Assembly (NCBI GenBank): GCA_016181885.1
Contig: JACOYJ010000027.1
Span: 1-48,629 of the forward strand
Source of the DNA: Candidatus Pacearchaeota archaeon
GTDB lineage: Archaea; Nanobdellota; Nanobdellia; Pacearchaeales; GW2011-AR1
Direction: 5' to 3'
DNA: 48,629 nt
In this document: in pieces, positions 22,834 through 45,319 of the stretch
Layout of the letters: each line of letters begins with the position of its first letter
Numbering within the stretch: the first letter of the stretch is position 1
Translations under genes and position numbers: made by a program
Notes under the pieces: model-generated
What the model was told of the DNA's origin: nothing
Seen by the model: only the letters and a program-made list of their open reading frames with translations
Database searches by the model: none

Positions 22834-23973
22834 ATGAAAAGAGCGTTAATTACGGGGGTGACTGGGCAAGATGGAAGTTATCTAGCTGAATTATTGCTGG
22901 AGAAAGGATATGAAGTTTATGGGATTGTGAGGAGAACTTCCGCATTTAACAGAGAAAGAGTGGAACATTTAACCAATAATCCTAACTTTCATTTAGTCTA
23001 TGGGGATATGGCTGACACTTCTTCATTAAGTAAAGCCATAAATGAGATACTTCCGGACGAAATTTATAATTTAGCAGCCCAAAGTCATGTTAGGATAAGC
23101 TTTGATATGCCAGAGTATACTGGAGAAGTTAACGGGCTCGGGGTTTTAAGGATATTGCATTTAATAAAAGAAATTCAGGAAAAAACTCCGGGAAAAATTA
23201 AATTTTATCAGGCTTCAACGTCTGAATTATTTGGAAAAGCACAAGAGTTTCCGCAAACAGAAAAAACTCCTTTTCATCCACGAAGCCCTTATGCGATATC
23301 CAAATTATATGCATACTGGAATACTGTTAATTATAGGGAAAGTTATGGTATTTTTGCTTGCAATGGAATATTATTCAACCATGAATCTCCCAGGCGGGGG
23401 GAGAATTTTGTTACAATGAAAATTGCAAGAGGTGTGGCTGAAATAAAAAAAGGAATAACTAAAACTATTGAACTCGGGAATTTAGACGCTAAAAGAGACT
23501 GGGGGCATGCAAAGGATCATGTAAAGGCTATGTGGTTAATACTACAACAAAAAGAGCCAAAAGATTACGTAATTGCATCTGGAGAAAACCATTCAGTAAG
23601 AGAGTTTCTTGAAGAAGCTTTCAAAGTTGTTGGAATAGAAGTAATGAGCAACAATAAACCTGGGATAGGAGAAGAGTATATTAGAAAAGACACTGGAGAA
23701 GTTGTGGTTAAAATAGATCCAGCTTTTTTTAGACCCGCCGAAGTTGATAATCTTTGTGGAGATGCTTCAATGGCTTACAAAGATTTTGGGTGGAAAGCAG
23801 AAATTTCCTTCAAAGAATTAGTCAAAGAGATGGTTATTTCCCAAATAAACAGAATTGAAAAAGATGAAAAAGCTTACATCAGAGATATAATAAGAGGGAT
23901 GGTAATGGAGGAAATTGAAAAATCCTTAAAATCCGGATTAAAGGCTGACTTCAATATTATTGGAAAGATTTAA
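22834..23973 (+). CDS. gmd: GDP-mannose 4,6-dehydratase (or GDP-heptose dehydratase)
   Basis: The enzyme converts GDP-mannose to GDP-4-keto-6-deoxymannose, the precursor of GDP-rhamnose, fucose, perosamine and others. The 379-residue protein has [12 protein letters not shown] at 8-19, the catalytic T129/E131 of STSELFG, Y153/K157 of YAISK, and [13 protein letters not shown]. These closely follow the Gmd family. The last 50 residues form a charged helical tail. Because a complete GDP-heptose pathway lies at 39305-45319, it could also be a Dmh/WcbK-type GDP-heptose 4,6-dehydratase, which belongs to the same family. No dedicated partner (Fcl or Rmd) follows it. Confidence 0.92.
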
Positions 23974-26121: not shown

Positions 26122-27525
26122 ATGATGCTTGAAGATTTAAAAATTGATGGGGATAAAAAAATTATAGAAGCTATGAGAAAGATAGATGTCTCTGGAGCAG
26201 GCATTGTAATAGTTGTAAATTATAATGGAGGGGTTATGGGAACTGTCAGCGATGGAGATATAAGGAGGGCTATTTTGCGTGGAATTGATGTTAACGAAGA
26301 ACTTGTTAAAAATGTCGTTAGAAACGATCCAATTTTACTCCACCAAAGAGATTTACTTGATAAAAATATCATAAATATGGCTGCACTAGCATTATTCAGC
26401 AGATCTCCGGCTGGCGGCTTTGTTCCAGTGTTAGACGAGAAAGATGTTCTTATTGATTTAATTAAATTTACAGAGCTTGAAAAAAAAGAATATAAGCCGG
26501 TGAATAAATTTAACGGGACAATCACTTCAAAAACCAATGTTAAAAAGATACTTATTGTTGGAGGCGGGGGATATTTAGGAACTGTTTTAACTAAAAAACT
26601 CCTGCAAAAAGGTTATGGTGTTAAAGTGCTGGATATTTTCTTGTTTGGAAAGGGTCCGTTAAAAGAAATGGAAAACCATCCTGGATTAGAGATAATAGAA
26701 GGAGATATTAGAAACATAATGACTGTTTCAGAAGCCCTTCATGGTGTTGATGCAGTGATACATCTAGCAGCAATTGTTGGAGACCCTGCATGTAAAACAA
26801 ATCCGATAGACGCCATAGAAACTAATTATCTTGCAACAAAAACTCTTGCAGAAGCATGTAAATATAGGCAGATTAATAGATTTTTGTTTGCATCGACTTG
26901 CAGTGTTTACGGACGGGGTGATTCTGCATTAACTGAAGAAGCGCCTTTAAAACCCCTCTCACTGTATGCAAAATCAAAAATAACATCGGAAGAAGGAATC
27001 CTGGGATTAGGGAACGATAATTTCGCTCCGTGCTCATTAAGAATGGCAACTTTATATGGCCTTTCTCCAAGAATGAGATTCGATTTAGTAATTAATACTT
27101 TAACTATGAAGGCTGTGACTGAAGGAAAAATAACCATTTTCGGCGGGAATCAATGGAGACCGCTGCTTCATGTAGCTGACGCTGCAGAAGCTTATATAAA
27201 ATGTATTGAAAGCCCTATAGAAAATGTGAGAAGGCAAGTTTTTAACGTTGGGTCTAATGATAACAACTATCAAATTATCGATCTTGGAAATATTGTAAAA
27301 AAATTAGTCCCTGGAACAGAGATGGAAATTGTAGATAATAAAACAATTGACGGAAAAGACGATAAGAGAGATTATAATGTATCTTTTGACAAAATAAGAA
27401 AAACATTCGGATTTTTACCTCAAAATAAGATAGAAAATGGGATTATTGAGATGAAAACAGCTATTGAGGGGGGCAACTTTGGAAACGTCAAAGATCCCAG
27501 ATATTATAATTTAATGCAAGAATAA
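26122..27525 (+). CDS. CBS-pair fused to an NAD-dependent epimerase/dehydratase (SDR)
   Basis: This 467-residue protein joins two domains. Residues 1-120 form a tandem CBS pair, recognised by TVSDGDIRRAILRG, the hallmark of the CBS pair that usually precedes sugar nucleotidyltransferases. After a short linker, residues 141-467 form an extended SDR with the Rossmann motif GGGGYLG (147-153), HLAAIVGDPA, ASTCSVYG, and the catalytic Y282/K286 of YAKSK. It should use NAD(P) to epimerise, dehydrate or reduce a nucleotide sugar, possibly under allosteric control by an adenine nucleotide bound to the CBS pair. It opens the nonulosonate region and is convergent with the acetamidino triad. The exact reaction is unknown. 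Confidence 0.88.
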   Translation: MMLEDLKIDGDKKIIEAMRKIDVSGAGIVIVVNYNGGVMGTVSDGDIRRAILRGIDVNEELVKNVVRNDPILLHQRDLLDKNIINMAALALFSRSPAGGFVPVLDEKDVLIDLIKFTELEKKEYKPVNKFNGTITSKTNVKKILIVGGGGYLGTVLTKKLLQKGYGVKVLDIFLFGKGPLKEMENHPGLEIIEGDIRNIMTVSEALHGVDAVIHLAAIVGDPACKTNPIDAIETNYLATKTLAEACKYRQINRFLFASTCSVYGRGDSALTEEAPLKPLSLYAKSKITSEEGILGLGNDNFAPCSLRMATLYGLSPRMRFDLVINTLTMKAVTEGKITIFGGNQWRPLLHVADAAEAYIKCIESPIENVRRQVFNVGSNDNNYQIIDLGNIVKKLVPGTEMEIVDNKTIDGKDDKRDYNVSFDKIRKTFGFLPQNKIENGIIEMKTAIEGGNFGNVKDPRYYNLMQE

Positions 27526-37165: not shown

Positions 37166-38701
37166 ATGAAAAAAATAAAAATAGGCAATAAATTTGTTGG
37201 AGAGGGGGAGCCATGTTTTATAGTCGCTGAGGTGTCCTGTAATCATCAACAAAAATTTGAACAGGCTGTTGAAATTATAAAGGCAGCGGCCTATGCTGGA
37301 GCTGATGCTGTAAAACTGCAAACTTATACTCCAGACACCATGACTCTTAATTCTAATAAGCCCTGGTTCATAGTCGGCGGAAAAGACAATCCTGAAACAT
37401 GGCAGAAAAAAACTTTTTATGATTTATACAAAGAAGGCTACACTCCGTGGGAATGGCACGAACCTTTAAAAAAACTTGCGGAAGAATTAGGGCTTATTTT
37501 GTTTTCAACCCCATTTGATGAGACTGCCGTTGATTTCCTGGAAAAATTGAATGTGCCTTGTTATAAGATTGCTTCTTATGAGGCTACAGACATCCCTTTG
37601 CTAAAAAAAATTGCTTCAAATAGCAAGCCAATTATAATCTCAACGGGATTTGCGACGCTGGAGGAGATAGATTACTCAGTAAATACTCTTAAGACAGCCG
37701 GTGCCACGGATATTGTAGTCTTACAATGCCCGAGCTCTTATAGCGAAAAAGAAGATGATGCTAACACAAATTTAAACACTATGTTAGACATTGGAAGGCG
37801 ATATGGAGTATTGTATGGATTATCTGACAATATGGGCGGAATAGAAATTCCAGCCTTAGCTGCGGCGATAGGAGCATCGGTAATAGAAAAGCATATTGTT
37901 GTAAAGCATGATTCTTCTATTTTTGATGACAGATTTTCCCTAGATAAAGATGAATTCAGAAGGATGGTTGATAAAATAAGATGGCAGGAAGAAGTTGCCG
38001 GAAAAATTATTTATGGACCGCAAACTCCAGCAGAAAAGTATAATAGAAACTTTAGAAGATCGATTTTTGCTTCCAAAGAAATTAAGGTTGGAGAGATTTT
38101 TAGTGAAAATAATATTAAGAGAATTAGGCCTGCCTACGGATTATCTCCGAGGTATTATGAGGAAATTCTTGGAAAAAAAGCAAAGGTTAATATAGAGATG
38201 GGAACACCATTATCTGCTGAGATGATAGAAGGAAAAATAAGCGGGGATGGGATTAATTTTAGATTTGGAGAAGAGAAAGACTGCTTAAATATTTACCAAT
38301 GGAGAAATGAACCTAATGTAAGAGCCATATCTTTTAATTCTGATGAAATATCTTTCGAAGACCATCAGAAGTGGTTCAATAATATGATAAATGATCCAAA
38401 AAGAACGCTTTTCATCGTCATGAATGAGGATAATAAAGACATAGGGAACATAAGATTTGATAGAGATGGTGACCACGCACTTGTCAATATTATTATTGGG
38501 GGAGAACATATCAGAAAGGGTTATGGGACAGAGGCGATATGTAAAGCAACAAAACTTTATATGCAAAACTCCGAGGCCAACTATGTAATTGCGGAAATAA
38601 AAAAAGACAATATTGCGTCTGTAAAATCGTTCAGTAAAGCTGGATATAACTTGCATGCCGAACATTCTGATAGATATGAGTATAGGGCTTATAGGAGTTA
38701 A
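37166..38701 (+). CDS. pseI: pseudaminic acid synthase PseI fused to a GNAT acetyltransferase
   Basis: This 511-residue protein has a NeuB/PseI catalytic barrel (residues 1-275), a SAF/antifreeze-like domain (285-352) and an extra GNAT domain (363-505). PseI-type markers include TPDTMTLNS, YTPWEWH, STPFDETAVDFLE, ISTGFATLEEI and EKHIVV; the SAF part has FRRSIFA and RPAYGL. These favour pseudaminic over sialic or legionaminic synthases. The GNAT domain shows the acetyl-CoA loop HIRKGYGTE near residue 450 and resembles the C-terminal acetyltransferase attached to some PseG proteins or PseH. The enzyme condenses PEP with a 2,4-diacetamido hexose. Fusing acetylation to condensation is unusual. 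It follows spsF by 35 bases. Confidence 0.93.
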   Translation: MKKIKIGNKFVGEGEPCFIVAEVSCNHQQKFEQAVEIIKAAAYAGADAVKLQTYTPDTMTLNSNKPWFIVGGKDNPETWQKKTFYDLYKEGYTPWEWHEPLKKLAEELGLILFSTPFDETAVDFLEKLNVPCYKIASYEATDIPLLKKIASNSKPIIISTGFATLEEIDYSVNTLKTAGATDIVVLQCPSSYSEKEDDANTNLNTMLDIGRRYGVLYGLSDNMGGIEIPALAAAIGASVIEKHIVVKHDSSIFDDRFSLDKDEFRRMVDKIRWQEEVAGKIIYGPQTPAEKYNRNFRRSIFASKEIKVGEIFSENNIKRIRPAYGLSPRYYEEILGKKAKVNIEMGTPLSAEMIEGKISGDGINFRFGEEKDCLNIYQWRNEPNVRAISFNSDEISFEDHQKWFNNMINDPKRTLFIVMNEDNKDIGNIRFDRDGDHALVNIIIGGEHIRKGYGTEAICKATKLYMQNSEANYVIAEIKKDNIASVKSFSKAGYNLHAEHSDRYEYRAYRS

Positions 38702-38705
38702 GAAA

Positions 38706-39308
38706 ATGGCTGAAAGTTATGGGTTGGTTCTTTGTCATGATATAAAAAAAACTGATTCAGGATATGAATTAAATGAGCAGACAAGGGAAAGAACAGATAC
38801 GGGAATTAACTTATTAAAAGAAAGACGGGTGGGAAAATTGATTATGTCTGGGGGGTGCGAACATTTATATGGGATAACTATTGCAAGTTTGATGAAGAAG
38901 TACGCAATTGAGATGGGGGTTAATTCTGAAGATATTATAGAAGAGGGTTTATCAAGAGATACTGCCGGGCAATTAATTTTCTCTAAAATTGGAATAATTG
39001 ACGCGGTCGGGGTAAAAAAAATAATAATCATAAGCCATGAATATCATCTTCCTCGGATTAAGTCAGAAGCTAATTTTATATTTGGAAATGAGTATGAATT
39101 ATCTTTTTTGGGAGTTGCTGGACCAGATGAAAGAAATGGGGGTGCGGAATTGGAGAGAAAAAGTTTAGAAGCTTTCATAAGGACATTTAAAGGAATAAAA
39201 TGCGGCGACAGCGAAAAGATTTTAAGCCGGCTTTTAGAGCAACATAATTTTTATAAGGCAGAAAGAAAAGAATTCTTAGAAAGATTGGAAATATTAAAAG
39301 ACTCCTAG
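38706..39308 (+). CDS. YdcF/SanA/ElyC family (DUF218) protein
   Basis: This 200-residue protein has the DUF218 motif pair: a starting strand YGLVLCHDI, MSGGCEH with a following basic/aromatic turn, SRDTAGQ, and ISHEYHLPRI near residue 115. Bacterial YdcF binds SAM, and SanA/ElyC affect envelope synthesis, but no reaction is firmly known. I start at the ATG at 38706, four bases after the pseI stop; the upstream frame to 38655 lies inside pseI. No signal peptide or membrane helix is present in this copy. The stop overlaps the convergent gmhA gene by four bases. Confidence 0.85.
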   Translation: MAESYGLVLCHDIKKTDSGYELNEQTRERTDTGINLLKERRVGKLIMSGGCEHLYGITIASLMKKYAIEMGVNSEDIIEEGLSRDTAGQLIFSKIGIIDAVGVKKIIIISHEYHLPRIKSEANFIFGNEYELSFLGVAGPDERNGGAELERKSLEAFIRTFKGIKCGDSEKILSRLLEQHNFYKAERKEFLERLEILKDS

Positions 39309-39889
39309 TTGTTAATTGACTCTTTATTAACTGACCATTTTTCTATTATTTCACAAATTATATGTATAATAAGAATATGGCTTTCTTGAACTCTTGGTGT
39401 GTTGGCTGAATGGACTATAATCTCTAAATTGCATTTGCCTTTCATTTTCCCGCCTTTATCCCCCATAAGACCAATAACAAACATTCTTTTTTCTTTGGCG
39501 GCATCAATAGCCTTAATGACATTCTCTGAGTTTCCAGAAGTGCTTATTGCGATTAGAACATCGCCCTCTTGGCCTATAGCTTTGACTTGTTTTTCGAAAA
39601 TATACTCATAACCAAAATCGTTTCCGATTGAAGTTAGTATAGAACTGTCTGTAGTTAAAGCCACGCATGGCAATGGGTCTCTATTTAATTTAAACTTATT
39701 CATTAATTCTGCGGCCATGTGTTGAGAATCCGCAGCGCTCCCGCCATTACCGCAAATAAGGACTTTTCTCCCATTTTTGTAACATTCAATTAAGATATTG
39801 CATGCGTCTTCAATTAAATTAATTGGAAGTGATTTCTTTGTATTCATGGATTCTTCAATTAGAGAGATTATTTGTTTTTCCATTAACAT
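39305..39889 (-). CDS. gmhA: sedoheptulose-7-phosphate isomerase (GmhA)
   Basis: This is the first step of ADP/GDP-heptose synthesis: sedoheptulose-7-P to D-glycero-manno-heptose-7-P. The 194-residue SIS protein has GNGGSAADSQHMAAEL (H57, E61) and a C-terminal Q168/H176 that repeat the four metal ligands of E. coli GmhA (H61, E65, Q172, H180) with the same spacing. The SIS phosphate loop STSGNSEN is intact. It may start at 39889 or at the ATG two codons on (39883). It is the only minus-strand member of the heptose set; the other enzymes are on the plus strand beginning at 41775. Confidence 0.93.
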   Translation of the reverse strand: MLMEKQIISLIEESMNTKKSLPINLIEDACNILIECYKNGRKVLICGNGGSAADSQHMAAELMNKFKLNRDPLPCVALTTDSSILTSIGNDFGYEYIFEKQVKAIGQEGDVLIAISTSGNSENVIKAIDAAKEKRMFVIGLMGDKGGKMKGKCNLEIIVHSANTPRVQESHILIIHIICEIIEKWSVNKESINN

Positions 39890-39990: not shown

Positions 39991-41694
39991 ATGGTGCAAA
40001 AATTGGTGAAGATGAAATTATCTCTTAACGCGAGAAATGTTGAAAAGATATTGAAAGAGAAAAAATTATTATTTGCTATGTGGGGGTGTGAAAGCAATGA
40101 ACACCAGCCCCATTGCAATTACGAACCTCTTAAAAAAATTTTGGGCGATGTAATCGTCTTCGATCCAAGAAAGAAGAAGTATGAATATGGGCCGGAAAAA
40201 TCAAAGGAAATGCTTTTAAAGATAATTACAGAACAAAAACCAGATTATATCTTATTAACATTGAGCAGCTTAGCAGATTTCGACATAGATACTTTAATGA
40301 ATATCTATAAGATATCTCCAAAAACAAAAACAATTGTGTTCTTAACAGACGACGATACGAGGTTTGATAATTGGACAAGATACCATATGTTATTTATAGA
40401 TTATGGGTTGGTTGTACAGACGCACTATCTCCCTAAGTTCAAAGAGGATGGATTAGGGGGGGTTTTTCCTGCAATAGAGGTTATTGGAATAGACACTAAC
40501 TATTATAAACCTTTGAATTTGAAAAAAGAATATGATGTAACTTTCATAGGCGGCCCTAACAAAAGCAGAGTAGAATTAATGAGACTCTTAGTTAAAAACA
40601 AGATTAACCTGAAAATTTGGGGCCATGGATGGACTGAATATGGTGATTTAAGGAAAAATTATATGGGGCCTGCAAGCGCTGAAAATTACGTTAAAATAAT
40701 AAATAAAAGCAAAATAAGCTTGGGTTTTAGCAGAAACGGGGAAGGAGAGCTCCATATTAAGGGGAGGATTTTTGAGGTGGCGGCCTGCAAATCATTTAAT
40801 CTAGTTGATTATTTTCTTGAGTATCTTAAAATCTTCAAAGAAGGAAAAGAAATGGTTATGTTTAAAGATAGCGGAGATTTGCTTGAAAAAATAGCCTATT
40901 ATCTAAAACATGAAAAAGAAAGGGAGATGGTCGCTGAAAATGCTTATAAAAAAGTCATCAGGAAATGTAATTTGATAAATGGATACAAAAATATTTTCCG
41001 AAAGATATTAAATGAGGAAAGTAAATTTTCAAGAACCTTGCCAAAAATTAATGGGAAAATTGCTGAATTGTCTAACGACGACTTCAAGCTTGGAATAACC
41101 TCAATTAAAGAAAAAGTCAACAAAGCCGACTATATTTGTTTTAGAGCTAAAGATTCTAGATTTCATAAATATAAAAATTACCTGCAGGCCTATTCTTTAG
41201 AAAAAACAAAGAAAGAAATCTCTTGCTGCAGTTATTCTGTTTATTCAAAAGGCCTTGGAGATTTGTTGTTGCTTGATTTGGAAGAACAACTCCGTAGCTT
41301 CAACATTGGAAAATTTGAAGAAGCGCTAAAAATAGACCAACTATTAGTTTCAAGGGGATATTTCTTAAAAAACATTTTTAATTTTAAAGAGTTTTTCAAC
41401 GGAAAAAGAATAGATATAATAAACAAAGAAAACACCTCCTTTATCTTCATTCCATTAGTAAGAATTAGAAAGGTCAATGCCATAAAATATGGGGATATGA
41501 AAAAGGCATTTCAAATGAACTTCGCAATAAAACTTTATTCACTTGCATATCAAAAAAAACTTCTAATAGACGGATATCTTTACAGGTTATTTATTAGATC
41601 TTTTATGGACATTGGCCTGTTTCCAATTAAGCATGTAATAAATTATAAGCTAAAAAAAGACAAGATTAATGACTTGTTTGATGTTTTAAAGTAA
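39991..41694 (+). CDS. CgeB-like glycosyltransferase with an extra C-terminal domain
   Basis: This is a 567-residue protein. The first 345 residues resemble CgeB/Glyco_trans_1_2 GT-B proteins: MWGCESNEHQPH, TIVFLTDDDTRFD, VTFIGGPNKSR, ISLGFSRNGEGE and KGRIFEVAACKSF, the last being the donor-site helix. The last 220 residues are a separate domain that I cannot name. It contains a DYICFRAKDSRFHKYKNYL segment and a later IDQLLVSRGYF, weakly suggestive of a degenerate GT-A (GT2-like) half in which the catalytic Asp pair is not evident. It is a single gene between gmhA and the heptose pathway, so a heptosyltransferase role is plausible but unproved. Confidence 0.72.
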   Translation: MVQKLVKMKLSLNARNVEKILKEKKLLFAMWGCESNEHQPHCNYEPLKKILGDVIVFDPRKKKYEYGPEKSKEMLLKIITEQKPDYILLTLSSLADFDIDTLMNIYKISPKTKTIVFLTDDDTRFDNWTRYHMLFIDYGLVVQTHYLPKFKEDGLGGVFPAIEVIGIDTNYYKPLNLKKEYDVTFIGGPNKSRVELMRLLVKNKINLKIWGHGWTEYGDLRKNYMGPASAENYVKIINKSKISLGFSRNGEGELHIKGRIFEVAACKSFNLVDYFLEYLKIFKEGKEMVMFKDSGDLLEKIAYYLKHEKEREMVAENAYKKVIRKCNLINGYKNIFRKILNEESKFSRTLPKINGKIAELSNDDFKLGITSIKEKVNKADYICFRAKDSRFHKYKNYLQAYSLEKTKKEISCCSYSVYSKGLGDLLLLDLEEQLRSFNIGKFEEALKIDQLLVSRGYFLKNIFNFKEFFNGKRIDIINKENTSFIFIPLVRIRKVNAIKYGDMKKAFQMNFAIKLYSLAYQKKLLIDGYLYRLFIRSFMDIGLFPIKHVINYKLKKDKINDLFDVLK

Positions 41695-41754: not shown

Positions 41755-41774
41755 CGGTGATTAAAGATATAAAT

Positions 41775-42722
41775 ATGAAAAGAGAGAGTGTGCTTATAAC
41801 TGGGGGGGCTGGATATATTGGAAGTGTTCTTACCGGACATTTGCTGGATAATGGTTTTAAAGTTACATGTTTGGACGATTTAAGGTATGGGCAAAAATCT
41901 TTAATTCATTATGCGGGAAACCCTGCCTTTGATTTTGTTTACGGTGATTGCAGAAATAAAAATCTTCTGGAGGAGATAATTGGAAAATTTGATTTTATTA
42001 TACCATTAGCAGCTTTAGTTGGGGCGCCAATTTGTGATTCTAAGCCAGTAGAAGCCGAAACTATAAACAGAGATGCCGTAATTTTAATAGATAATTTAAG
42101 AAGCAGAAATCAACAAATTATTTTTCCTACAACCAATAGTGGCTACGGCACGACTACTGGAGAAACCTTCTGCACAGAAGAAACCCCTTTAAATCCAATT
42201 ACACTTTATGGCAGGACAAAAGTAGAGGCTGAGAAATCTCTTTTAGACTCGGAAAAAGGCGCAATAACCATGAGGCTTGCAACGGTTTTTGGAGCTTCTC
42301 CAAGAATGAGAACCGACTTGCTTGTAAACGATTTTGTTTTAAAGGCTGTAACTGATAGATATATTGTAATTTATGAGAAGGATTTCAAAAGAAATTATAT
42401 TCATATAAAAGATGTTGCAAGAGCATTTGAGCATTGTATTAATAATTTTGATGTAATGAAAAACCAAGCCTATAATTTGGGATTAAGTGACGCTAACTTA
42501 TCAAAAATTGAGCTTGCTGAAAAGATAAAAGAGCATATTCCAGACTTCGAAATAATAAACGGCGAAATTGGGAGCGACCCGGATAAAAGAAACTATATTG
42601 TCTCTAACGAAAAAATTGAAAAAACCGGATTCAAAACCGAATTTTCGCTAGATTATGGCATTAAGGAATTAGTCAAAACGTATAAAATACTGTTAAAAGG
42701 CAATCAGGACAGGAATTATTAA
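41775..42722 (+). CDS. NAD(P)-dependent epimerase/reductase of the heptose region (SDR)
   Basis: This 315-residue extended SDR has the Rossmann motif GGAGYIG near the start, PLAALVGAPICDSKP, a TTNSGYGTTTG segment in the position of the catalytic Ser/Thr, and YGRTK as the catalytic Tyr/Lys. It is closest to the 4-epimerase or 4-reductase branch. It is the first gene of a plus-strand unit with gmhB (three-base gap) and the HddC-CBS-HddA fusion. A role on a GDP-heptose or its 4-keto-6-deoxy derivative is likely, with Gmd as a possible dehydratase partner. The exact reaction is not determinable. Confidence 0.85.
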   Translation: MKRESVLITGGAGYIGSVLTGHLLDNGFKVTCLDDLRYGQKSLIHYAGNPAFDFVYGDCRNKNLLEEIIGKFDFIIPLAALVGAPICDSKPVEAETINRDAVILIDNLRSRNQQIIFPTTNSGYGTTTGETFCTEETPLNPITLYGRTKVEAEKSLLDSEKGAITMRLATVFGASPRMRTDLLVNDFVLKAVTDRYIVIYEKDFKRNYIHIKDVARAFEHCINNFDVMKNQAYNLGLSDANLSKIELAEKIKEHIPDFEIINGEIGSDPDKRNYIVSNEKIEKTGFKTEFSLDYGIKELVKTYKILLKGNQDRNY

Positions 42723-42725
42723 AAA

Positions 42726-43283
42726 ATGGTAAGAGGTGTTTTCTTAGATAGAGACGGGGTTGTATGTTTTGAAAAAAATCATTTGGTCAAAGCTGAAGAG
42801 ATATCTCTAATCCATAATTCTGGAAAGGGAATTAAAATGCTTAATGATGCTGGATATAAAACCATAATCGTCTCTAACCAAGCTGCTATTGCAAATGGGA
42901 TGTGTAAAATTGAGGATGTTAGATTAGTAAATAAATGTATAGAAGATATTTTAGAATACGATGGAGCCATAATAGATAAATTCTACTTTTGCCCGCACCA
43001 TCCGGGGGGGATTGTGCCTGAATATTCTGTGGCCTGCAACTGCAGAAAACCTGCTATTGGAATGTTACTTCAAGCCGCACGGGATTTTTCAATAAACTTA
43101 AATGAAAGTTGGATGATTGGAGATAAAACAATAGACGTAGCTGCTGGAAAAAGCGCTGGGTGTAGAACAATACTTGTAGAAACTGGCTATGGCGGAAAAG
43201 ATGAAATAATAAATGTTCAACCGACATTCCTGGCAAAAAATCTTTATGAAGCAGTAAGTAAAATAATTTTAAAGGAAAAATGA
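42726..43283 (+). CDS. gmhB: D-glycero-D-manno-heptose-1,7-bisphosphate 7-phosphatase (GmhB)
   Basis: This 185-residue HAD-superfamily phosphatase removes the 7-phosphate from heptose-1,7-bisphosphate. The nucleophile motif is FLDRDGVV (D8, D10). SNQAAIANG is motif II, CRKPAIGML gives motif III Lys, and MIGDKTIDV is motif IV. A zinc loop with CPHHPGG and CNCRKP is typical of GmhB and absent from ordinary histidinol phosphatases. It overlaps the next gene by four bases (ATGA), so the phosphatase and the kinase/nucleotidyltransferase are co-translated. Confidence 0.94.
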   Translation: MVRGVFLDRDGVVCFEKNHLVKAEEISLIHNSGKGIKMLNDAGYKTIIVSNQAAIANGMCKIEDVRLVNKCIEDILEYDGAIIDKFYFCPHHPGGIVPEYSVACNCRKPAIGMLLQAARDFSINLNESWMIGDKTIDVAAGKSAGCRTILVETGYGGKDEIINVQPTFLAKNLYEAVSKIILKEK

Positions 43284-45319
43284 AGGCACTGATTTTAGCT
43301 GGCGGATTTGGAACTAGACTTAAAAGCATTACTGGAGAAGAAATCCCAAAACCAATGGCGGCAATAGCCGGAAAGCCATTTTTAGAGCACCAAATAAATT
43401 TCTTGAAAAACAACGGCATAAATGAAATAGTTCTTGCTATTCATTATAAGGCAAATAAAATAAAATCATATTTTGGAAGCGGACTAAGATGGGGAGTTAA
43501 CATAACCTATTGTGAAGAAGAAATTCCTTTGGGGACTGCCGGAGCCATAAAAAATGCGGAAAGATACATGGAAGATACTTTCATTATTATGAATGGGGAC
43601 TCATATGCTCCAATAAATCTCGACGAATTTATTAAATTTCATAAATCAAGGAATAGTTTCTGCACTTTGTGTCTGGCTAAAATCAATATAGAAACACTGG
43701 ACTACGGAAGCGTTATTGTAGACAATGATTATATAACAAAATTCTGCGAGAAAGAAGAAATTGGAAGTAATCTGATAAATGGCGGCATCTACATAGTTGA
43801 GCCGGGAATTTTTCAATATATACCTAAAGATAGAGAAATTTCTCTTGAAAAAGAAATATTCCCCAATCTATCAAGGATCAGGCTATTAAAGGGGTATATT
43901 CATGATGGTTATTTTATGGATATTGGAAAACCCGAGACATATAAAAAATTTAAGAGTGATGTTCTTTCAACAATCTTTTTAAAACAAGAGGCAAGCATTA
44001 TTGACGCAATAGAAAGAATGAACAAAAATGAAATAAATTTGATTCTTATTGTTGACGATGATAATAAACTATTGGGGGTCTTAACTGACAGGATAATAAA
44101 AAGATTTATTATAAATGGGGGGGATATAAGGGGAAAAATAACTCAGGCAATGATTACTGATCCAGTTATTGCTAATGTTAACGATGAGGACGGAATAAAC
44201 AAGCTGCTTTCAAGCGGAATAAACAGCCTGCCAGTCGTTGACGAAAATAAAAGGGTTGTGGATATAAGATTTAGGCTTGAGAAAATGTATGAGGAGAGCT
44301 ATCCAATAATAAGGGGAAAGAGCCCGCTAAGGATAAGCTTTGGCGGCGGGGGAACAGACCTGCCTTATTTTTTTGAAAAATATGGCGGGGCGGTAATAAA
44401 CGCAACAATAGATAAATATTGTTATGCTACGATTGTAAAAAGGGCTGATAAAAAAATAATCATCGACTCTGACCTTACGCCTGAGGAAGATATTTTTGTA
44501 AGCTCTATAGAAGAGCTGGTTTATGACAATAGATTTGACCTTGTTAAGGCGATAATAAAAATAATTAGGCCATCATTCGGCTTCGAATTATACTTGCATA
44601 ACGATGTTCCTCCTGGAAGGGGGCTTGGATCTTCCGCAAGCTTGGCTGTTCTCCTAATAAACATGCTGGGAAATATTCAGGGGGTAAACTACAGCGACGA
44701 AAAAATTGCGGAAATTGCGTACAGAGCAGAGAGAGAGGAACTAAAAATAAGGGGCGGATGGCAGGACCAGTATGCAGCGATTGGCGGAGGCTTTAACTTT
44801 ATGGAATTTGATCAGGATAAAAGAATAATTTATCCATTAAGATTAAAAGAAGATGTCATTCACGAATTAAATAGCCGTCTTATTTTATGTTATATCGGAA
44901 AAGACCATAATTCTGGAGAGGTGCATGGTGATAATTGGGAGAAAACGTTTAAAGAAAACGAGGAAGAGGTAAGTATGAGGCTAAGAATCATAAAAGAAAA
45001 CGCATTAAAAATAAAAGATGCTTTATTGACAAACAGGCTGGATGAAATTGGAAAGCTACTGCATGAATCCTGGGAAAACAAAAAGAAACTTGGAAGAAAT
45101 ATATCTAATCTCCATATTGACGAAATGTATGAAATTGGCTTAAATAGCGGAGCAATTGGCGGAAAGTTATTGGGTGCTGGAAGCGGGGGATATTTACTAT
45201 TTTTTCATCAGCCACAAAGAAGAAATCAATTAATAAACTCCATTAAAAAAAATAGCGGGGAGATATTGAACTTTAATTTTGAATCTCTTGGAACTAGAAT
45301 TTGGAATGTTAAGCAGTAA
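43280..45319 (+). CDS. hddC/hddA: HddC-CBS-HddA fusion: heptose-1-P guanylyltransferase and heptose-7-P kinase
   Basis: A single 679-residue protein holds three parts. Residues 1-225 are a sugar-1-P nucleotidyltransferase (GGFGTRL at 8-14, MNGDSY with D107, DIGKPETY). Residues 233-330 are a CBS pair (VDDDNKLLGVLTD, NSLPVVDENKR). Residues 343-679 are a GHMP kinase with RISFGGGGTDLP, the ATP loop PPGRGLGSSASL (444-455) and GAGSGGYLLFF. The kinase adds a 1-phosphate to heptose-7-P, GmhB removes the 7-phosphate, and the nucleotidyltransferase makes the GDP (or other NDP) heptose. So the first and last of the three activation steps are on one chain, perhaps controlled by nucleotide binding to the CBS pair. 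Confidence 0.92.
   Translation: MKALILAGGFGTRLKSITGEEIPKPMAAIAGKPFLEHQINFLKNNGINEIVLAIHYKANKIKSYFGSGLRWGVNITYCEEEIPLGTAGAIKNAERYMEDTFIIMNGDSYAPINLDEFIKFHKSRNSFCTLCLAKINIETLDYGSVIVDNDYITKFCEKEEIGSNLINGGIYIVEPGIFQYIPKDREISLEKEIFPNLSRIRLLKGYIHDGYFMDIGKPETYKKFKSDVLSTIFLKQEASIIDAIERMNKNEINLILIVDDDNKLLGVLTDRIIKRFIINGGDIRGKITQAMITDPVIANVNDEDGINKLLSSGINSLPVVDENKRVVDIRFRLEKMYEESYPIIRGKSPLRISFGGGGTDLPYFFEKYGGAVINATIDKYCYATIVKRADKKIIIDSDLTPEEDIFVSSIEELVYDNRFDLVKAIIKIIRPSFGFELYLHNDVPPGRGLGSSASLAVLLINMLGNIQGVNYSDEKIAEIAYRAEREELKIRGGWQDQYAAIGGGFNFMEFDQDKRIIYPLRLKEDVIHELNSRLILCYIGKDHNSGEVHGDNWEKTFKENEEEVSMRLRIIKENALKIKDALLTNRLDEIGKLLHESWENKKKLGRNISNLHIDEMYEIGLNSGAIGGKLLGAGSGGYLLFFHQPQRRNQLINSIKKNSGEILNFNFESLGTRIWNVKQ

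Follow-up and report, generated by a model that had tools for sequence, protein, structure and literature searches.

What would an archaeal gene make that joins a nucleotidyltransferase, a CBS pair and a GHMP kinase in one reading frame, and does the CBS pair regulate the two enzymes that it separates? We addressed these questions for a gene at positions 43280..45319 of contig JACOYJ010000027.1 (contig 65 of assembly GCA_016181885.1) of Candidatus Pacearchaeota archaeon, a DPANN archaeon with a genome of 1.1 Mb that is 84.7% complete. The whole stretch analyzed, 48,629 nucleotides, is referred to below as the window. Our analysis indicates that the fusion and its neighbors most likely make GDP-heptose, with a kinase of the HddA type and a transferase of the HddC type. 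The architecture, family membership, conserved catalytic residues and gene context were read from the sequence, and from these we infer the substrate, the product, the order of the steps and the role of the CBS pair.

The open reading frame (ORF) lies on the + strand, starts with ATG and encodes 679 amino acids (aa) without an internal stop. Its three parts, with the evidence for each, are as follows:
43280..43963, + strand: HddC-like nucleotidyltransferase domain, residues 1-228 (Pfam PF00483, NCBIfam HddC NF049965, PDB 5xhw/6jq8, tree)
43964..44302, + strand: CBS pair, residues 229-341 (Pfam PF00571, PDB sequence matches, AlphaFold2, Foldseek, motif table)
44306..45310, + strand: HddA-like GHMP kinase domain, residues 343-677 (NCBIfam HddA NF049969; PDB 4n3o, 4usk and 3k85; Foldseek)

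Pfam placed NTP_transferase at residues 2-228 (E 3.5e-33), CBS at 232-277 (E 6.7e-11), GHMP_kinases_N at 421-504 and GHMP_kinases_C at 579-657. Among 181 genomes of the family, we found 11 complete copies of the fusion (window included) and one copy split by contig ends (G201); these 12 copies are spread over 10 genera, and an additional cut copy was present in G142. Because the three-part frame recurs as 11 complete copies in separate assemblies, the architecture is genuine, neither a product of chance nor of mis-assembly, and the initial annotation was correct in placing all three parts in a single frame. An AlphaFold model of the full fusion displayed confident domains, but their mutual arrangement was uncertain (pTM 0.54), and confidence was low for the joint at residues 335-339, on the CBS/kinase border. 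A literature search of partial coverage did not turn up any report of an NTP_transferase-CBS-GHMP kinase fusion, which is a fresh arrangement of already known parts.

Assignment of the kinase and transferase domains

We compared the kinase part with profile, structure and sequence collections. Its best NCBIfam model was HddA (E 3e-80, 270 bits), and its PDB matches to the heptose kinases 4n3o, 4usm/4usk (WcbL) and 3k85 (E 1e-60 to 1e-65) were far stronger than that to fucokinase (E 1e-16); Foldseek likewise ranked WcbL first. The ATP- and sugar-binding residues of WcbL, R13, D22, S118, S119, Q162 and D163 (PMC4691232), were identical in 11/11 complete fusion copies. In the kinase tree, the fusion kinases formed a single clade (support 99) that contained no fucokinase; the deeper forks were weak (support 57-87), and we do not claim HddA membership from this tree. 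The FKP model NF009948 gave 103 bits against a cut-off of 721, and a fucokinase/GDP-fucose reading was ruled out by match strength together with the trees.

For the transferase part, the best PDB match was HddC of Yersinia pseudotuberculosis (5xhw/6jq8). In the transferase tree, the fusions grouped with Yersinia HddC 6jq8 (support 98), with 7x8j and 8x7s excluded (few reference rows), and the set stood apart from GDP-mannose and UDP-glucose enzymes. A GDP-mannose reading was accordingly rejected on match strength and trees. The window copy carries the signatures GGFGTRL..PKPM and NGD, and the nucleotide loop GGxGTRL...KP is intact there and in 10 of the 11 copies overall. Membership of either domain in the fucokinase or another non-heptose family had been named as an outcome that would count against a heptose pathway; the trees gave no such placement, and the heptose reading was not refuted.

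The genomes that contain the fusion also tend to contain other heptose genes. We detected gmhA in 8/12 fusion genomes versus 30/169 other family genomes (Fisher P = 5e-4) and gmhB in 7/12 versus 1/20 chosen others (P = 0.0016), kinship being ignored in both tests. Among the 169 other genomes, gmhA was present in 15/16 with other HddA-like kinases, compared with 15/153 of the remainder. In G021 and G199 the fusion has gmhA as its immediate neighbor, and in G066 it is directly preceded by split transketolase genes. True Transketolase_N genes adjoin the fusion only in G066 and occur on the fusion contig in G198. Close to the fusion, G008, G064, G142 and G150 have split E1_dh/Transket_pyr genes, which we rejected as transketolase: those of G008 match pyruvate-dehydrogenase E1 models, and those of the other three genomes are relatives of the G008 genes by BLAST only.

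Neighboring genes and the proposed pathway

Genes for all four steps of GDP-heptose synthesis fit within ~6 kb of the window, where the fusion has the following neighbors:
39305..39889, − strand: GmhA-like sedoheptulose-7-phosphate isomerase, 194 aa (TIGR00441 above cut-off, 215.1 vs 209.45 bits)
39991..41694, + strand: glycosyltransferase, 567 aa (PF13524), predicted as a candidate user of the sugar
41757..42722, + strand: Cj1427-like NAD-dependent dehydrogenase (54% identity over 306 residues to PDB 6vo6)
42726..43283, + strand: GmhB-like HAD phosphatase, 185 aa (NCBIfam GmhB family models), overlapping the fusion by ATGA

The gmhB-like gene begins 3 bases past the dehydrogenase stop, and its own TGA stop falls within the ATGA that starts the fusion at 43280, so that dehydrogenase, gmhB and fusion form a tight three-gene cassette. 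The HAD aspartates and C-H-C-C residues of its product are invariant (alignment A4). The gmhA-like gene lies 3.4 kb upstream of the fusion on the opposite strand. Both the four-base overlap and the nearby gmhA were thus seen as first described, in what the evidence supports as an archaeal glycan locus. The description of two co-translated genes holds for the overlap in the window; however, this arrangement is peculiar to the window genome, and a conserved gmhB-fusion pair was ruled out, as none of the other 10 complete copies has gmhB next to it.

The most conserved neighbor is instead the Cj1427-like dehydrogenase, whose gene immediately precedes the fusion in 7 of the 10 other complete copies (G006, G021, G064, G144, G185, G198 and G199). 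At eight loci, including the window, the fusion-linked dehydrogenases exhibited 43-56% identity to PDB 6vo6, which, from its annotation, we take to be Cj1427 of Campylobacter. Cj1427 is a GDP-heptose 4-dehydrogenase (PMC10680097). Relatives of the glycosyltransferase occur near most fusion copies (G021, G064, G066, G144, G150, G185, G198 and G199). In G006, an Fcl-like reductase (L016:2975-3913) and an RmlC-like epimerase (L016:6963-7511), both named by eye, flank the dehydrogenase-fusion pair; the Campylobacter heptose-modification set likewise has reductase/epimerase companions.

In the pathway that we propose, GmhA (39305-39889) would convert sedoheptulose 7-phosphate to heptose 7-phosphate, the C-terminal HddA part would phosphorylate C1 with ATP, GmhB from the overlapping gene would remove the 7-phosphate in trans, and the N-terminal HddC part would add GMP from GTP. 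The product would then probably be oxidized at C4 by the Cj1427-like enzyme and used by the nearby glycosyltransferase. The fusion would couple the second and fourth steps, perhaps providing equal amounts of both activities and keeping intermediates close.

Several observations weigh against this pathway. The best NCBIfam models for the fusion parts all scored below the curated cut-offs of NCBI: the kinase reached 270 bits against an HddA equivalog cut-off of 600, and the transferase 174 bits (E 2.6e-51) against an HddC cut-off of 300, with the mannose-1-phosphate guanylyltransferase model scoring as well as HddC (E 4e-52, 177 bits). The HddA cut-off says little here, because no match above 600 bits was found in 14 control genomes either, and an archaeal kinase encoded within an evident heptose operon scored only 166 bits. 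Neither gmhA nor gmhB was found in 4/12 fusion genomes (G006, G144, G150 and G185); the absence perhaps reflects incompleteness (81-88%) and, the assemblies being incomplete, is weak evidence. No Transketolase_N or transaldolase-family gene, and thus no recognized source of sedoheptulose 7-phosphate, was detected in the window genome at its level of completeness. In addition, G198 harbors a separate HddA/HddC/GmhA set besides the fusion, and the two may serve different sugars. Finally, in the G199 copy (L075:9506-11542), the GGxGTRL loop is replaced by KGYKTKF... while the kinase residues are intact, and this copy may have lost one activity.

The four genomes without detected gmhA or gmhB, the second set in G198, the missing sedoheptulose 7-phosphate source and the scores under the cut-offs could all be accommodated if the fusion made another GDP-sugar by the same chemistry, such as a different heptose isomer or a salvaged hexose. 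We regard this as unlikely: both enzymes are nearest to heptose enzymes by sequence, the transferase also by tree; gmhA and gmhB are more frequent in genomes with the fusion; and gmhA, gmhB and transketolase each adjoin the fusion in different genomes. The GDP-heptose assignment made in the initial annotation is, by comparison, backed by the PDB matches, the WcbL residues, the trees, the co-occurrence of gmhA and gmhB and the dehydrogenase neighbor.

Two further genes of the window concern sugars of the same locus. An ORF at 37166-38701 (+) joins a pseudaminic acid synthase (PseI, above cut-off) to a PseH-like acetyltransferase domain, which suggests a nonulosonic acid besides heptose. Another at 22834-23973 (+) strongly matches GDP-mannose 4,6-dehydratase (473 bits), and its substrate could be GDP-mannose or GDP-heptose. 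A scan of the window for consensus promoters and terminators performed no better than on shuffled sequence, and no Rfam family matched within it.

The CBS pair between the two enzymes

CBS pairs are frequent nucleotide sensors, and the position of this pair between kinase and transferase had been taken to suggest adenine-nucleotide control of both. At threshold, Pfam recognized one CBS repeat only; PDB sequence matches run across residues 229-340 and reveal the second. AlphaFold modeled the stretch as two CBS-type repeats (pLDDT 88.7), and Foldseek aligned this model with CBS pairs in PDB at TM of about 0.7-0.77; the pair resembles modules of MJ0100, IMPDH and OpuCA. According to the model, the Bateman fold of two CBS repeats is kept.

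We then examined the ribose-phosphate motif (S/T)xxD, which is absent from both repeats in 11/11 complete copies. The position of the motif aspartate in the first repeat is occupied by I, L, V, A, F or S across all copies, and the second repeat contains a DIRFR-like sequence where the motif is expected. This loss is not general, since another ORF in the window (26122-27525, +), in which an N-terminal CBS stretch is joined to a Cj1427-like dehydrogenase (36% identity to 6vo6), keeps its SDGD. Mean pairwise identity among the fusion copies is 34% for the CBS stretch, compared with 52% for the transferase and 55% for the kinase. Nevertheless, the CBS stretch is not free to drift, because six of its positions are invariant (A243, G266, G313, P318, D321 and D328).

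Could the pair still sense adenine nucleotides and tune both enzymes? The retained fold, its likeness to the MJ0100, IMPDH and OpuCA modules, the presence of the pair in 12/12 copies and its invariant positions would favor such a role. However, the replaced motif aspartate in every complete copy, the SDGD retained by the other CBS-enzyme fusion, the faster divergence relative to the enzymes and four sister fusions that contain no CBS make it improbable, and we do not retain the regulatory claim of the initial annotation. Judging from these sequence features, the pair is most likely a folded spacer or oligomerization module, or binds a ligand in some unusual manner, rather than being an AMP/ATP sensor. 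That the three-part gene is in decay or retains only part of its activity, with one domain as a scaffold, as the destroyed transferase loop of G199 and the loss of CBS motifs in all copies might suggest, is very improbable given the intact, stop-free catalytic signatures of the window copy, 10/11 transferases and 11/11 kinases.

Related fusions and the biology of the family

No full-length fusion was found outside the family in a 371-genome sample of the phylum, where matches beyond the family were separate kinase or transferase genes. In a scan of named genomes, the full fusion appeared only in Candidatus Pacearchaeota/Nanoarchaeota records and one 'uncultured archaeon' record; in a tblastn search of plasmids, the rows, three of which were inspected, showed split matches, not obviously an HddC-CBS-HddA fusion. 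Within the family, four other genomes (G057, G067, G069 and G118) encode HddC joined to HddA in the same order, with gmhA or gmhB close by; in contrast to the fusion described here, these proteins are ~600 aa long, and a joint of 15 residues stands in place of the CBS pair. They probably represent an independent fusion event, because their kinases and transferases fall in clades other than those of the CBS fusion.

Further joins of heptose genes in the family include HddC-GmhB (L012) and HddC with a GDP-mannose-dehydratase-like part (L086). At L085:9083-10786, an HddA-like kinase is joined to a HAD_2 phosphatase, a possible replacement for GmhB; its genome, G183, has no gmhB match. An RfaE2-like (HldE C-terminal-like) nucleotidyltransferase is joined to GmhB at L072:361-1620 and stands alone at L014:5530-6021, which may point to an ADP-heptose-like branch in these archaea. 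A related kinase from another archaeal family (G333) is encoded within a clean HddC-GmhB-HddA-GmhA operon. With such an operon and HddA-like kinases present, the statement that the pathway is uncommon in an archaeal locus fails for this phylum.

The bacterial HddA and HddC enzymes (WcbL 4usk, Campylobacter jejuni 4n3o, Yersinia HddC 5xhw) share with the fusion their domain families, catalytic residues and nearby gmhA/gmhB, and the trees do not place the archaeal parts with other sugar enzymes. In the bacteria examined, however, HddA and HddC come from separate genes or, as in Shimia, HddC is fused to a GmhB-like phosphatase, whereas the archaeal fusion is a single chain with CBS in between. 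The L-fucokinase/GDP-fucose pyrophosphorylase FKP of Bacteroides fragilis likewise combines an N-terminal nucleotidyltransferase with a GHMP kinase in one chain and yields a GDP-sugar, with a connecting region between its two enzymes (PMC11982464). There, a beta-helix and a helical linker take the place of the CBS pair, the steps are consecutive, whereas those of HddA and HddC are separated by that of GmhB, and the kinase is far less similar to the fusion kinase than heptose kinases are. The dehydrogenase adjoining the fusion would link the locus to the Cj1427-type pathway of C. jejuni, here in an archaeal host.

We further considered a more speculative view, to which we attach only a small probability: a lineage-specific enzyme would join two non-consecutive GDP-heptose steps through a CBS pair remodeled away from adenine nucleotides, which would serve as an assembly platform for GmhB or sense a metabolite of the pathway, in archaea that live as symbionts and perhaps take sedoheptulose 7-phosphate from a partner cell.

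Most of the rare-group sugars covered by a survey of 303 complete archaeal genomes were reported absent from Archaea (PMC7725333). Our results suggest an archaeon whose coat contains a sugar known chiefly from bacteria, and point to the presence of GDP-heptose, and probably of its 4-keto derivative, among surface sugars in archaea with reduced genomes. The repeated and variously arranged fusions of one pathway in one family provide a natural series on why enzymes fuse, and, with no recognized source of sedoheptulose 7-phosphate, host dependence becomes an idea that can be tested.
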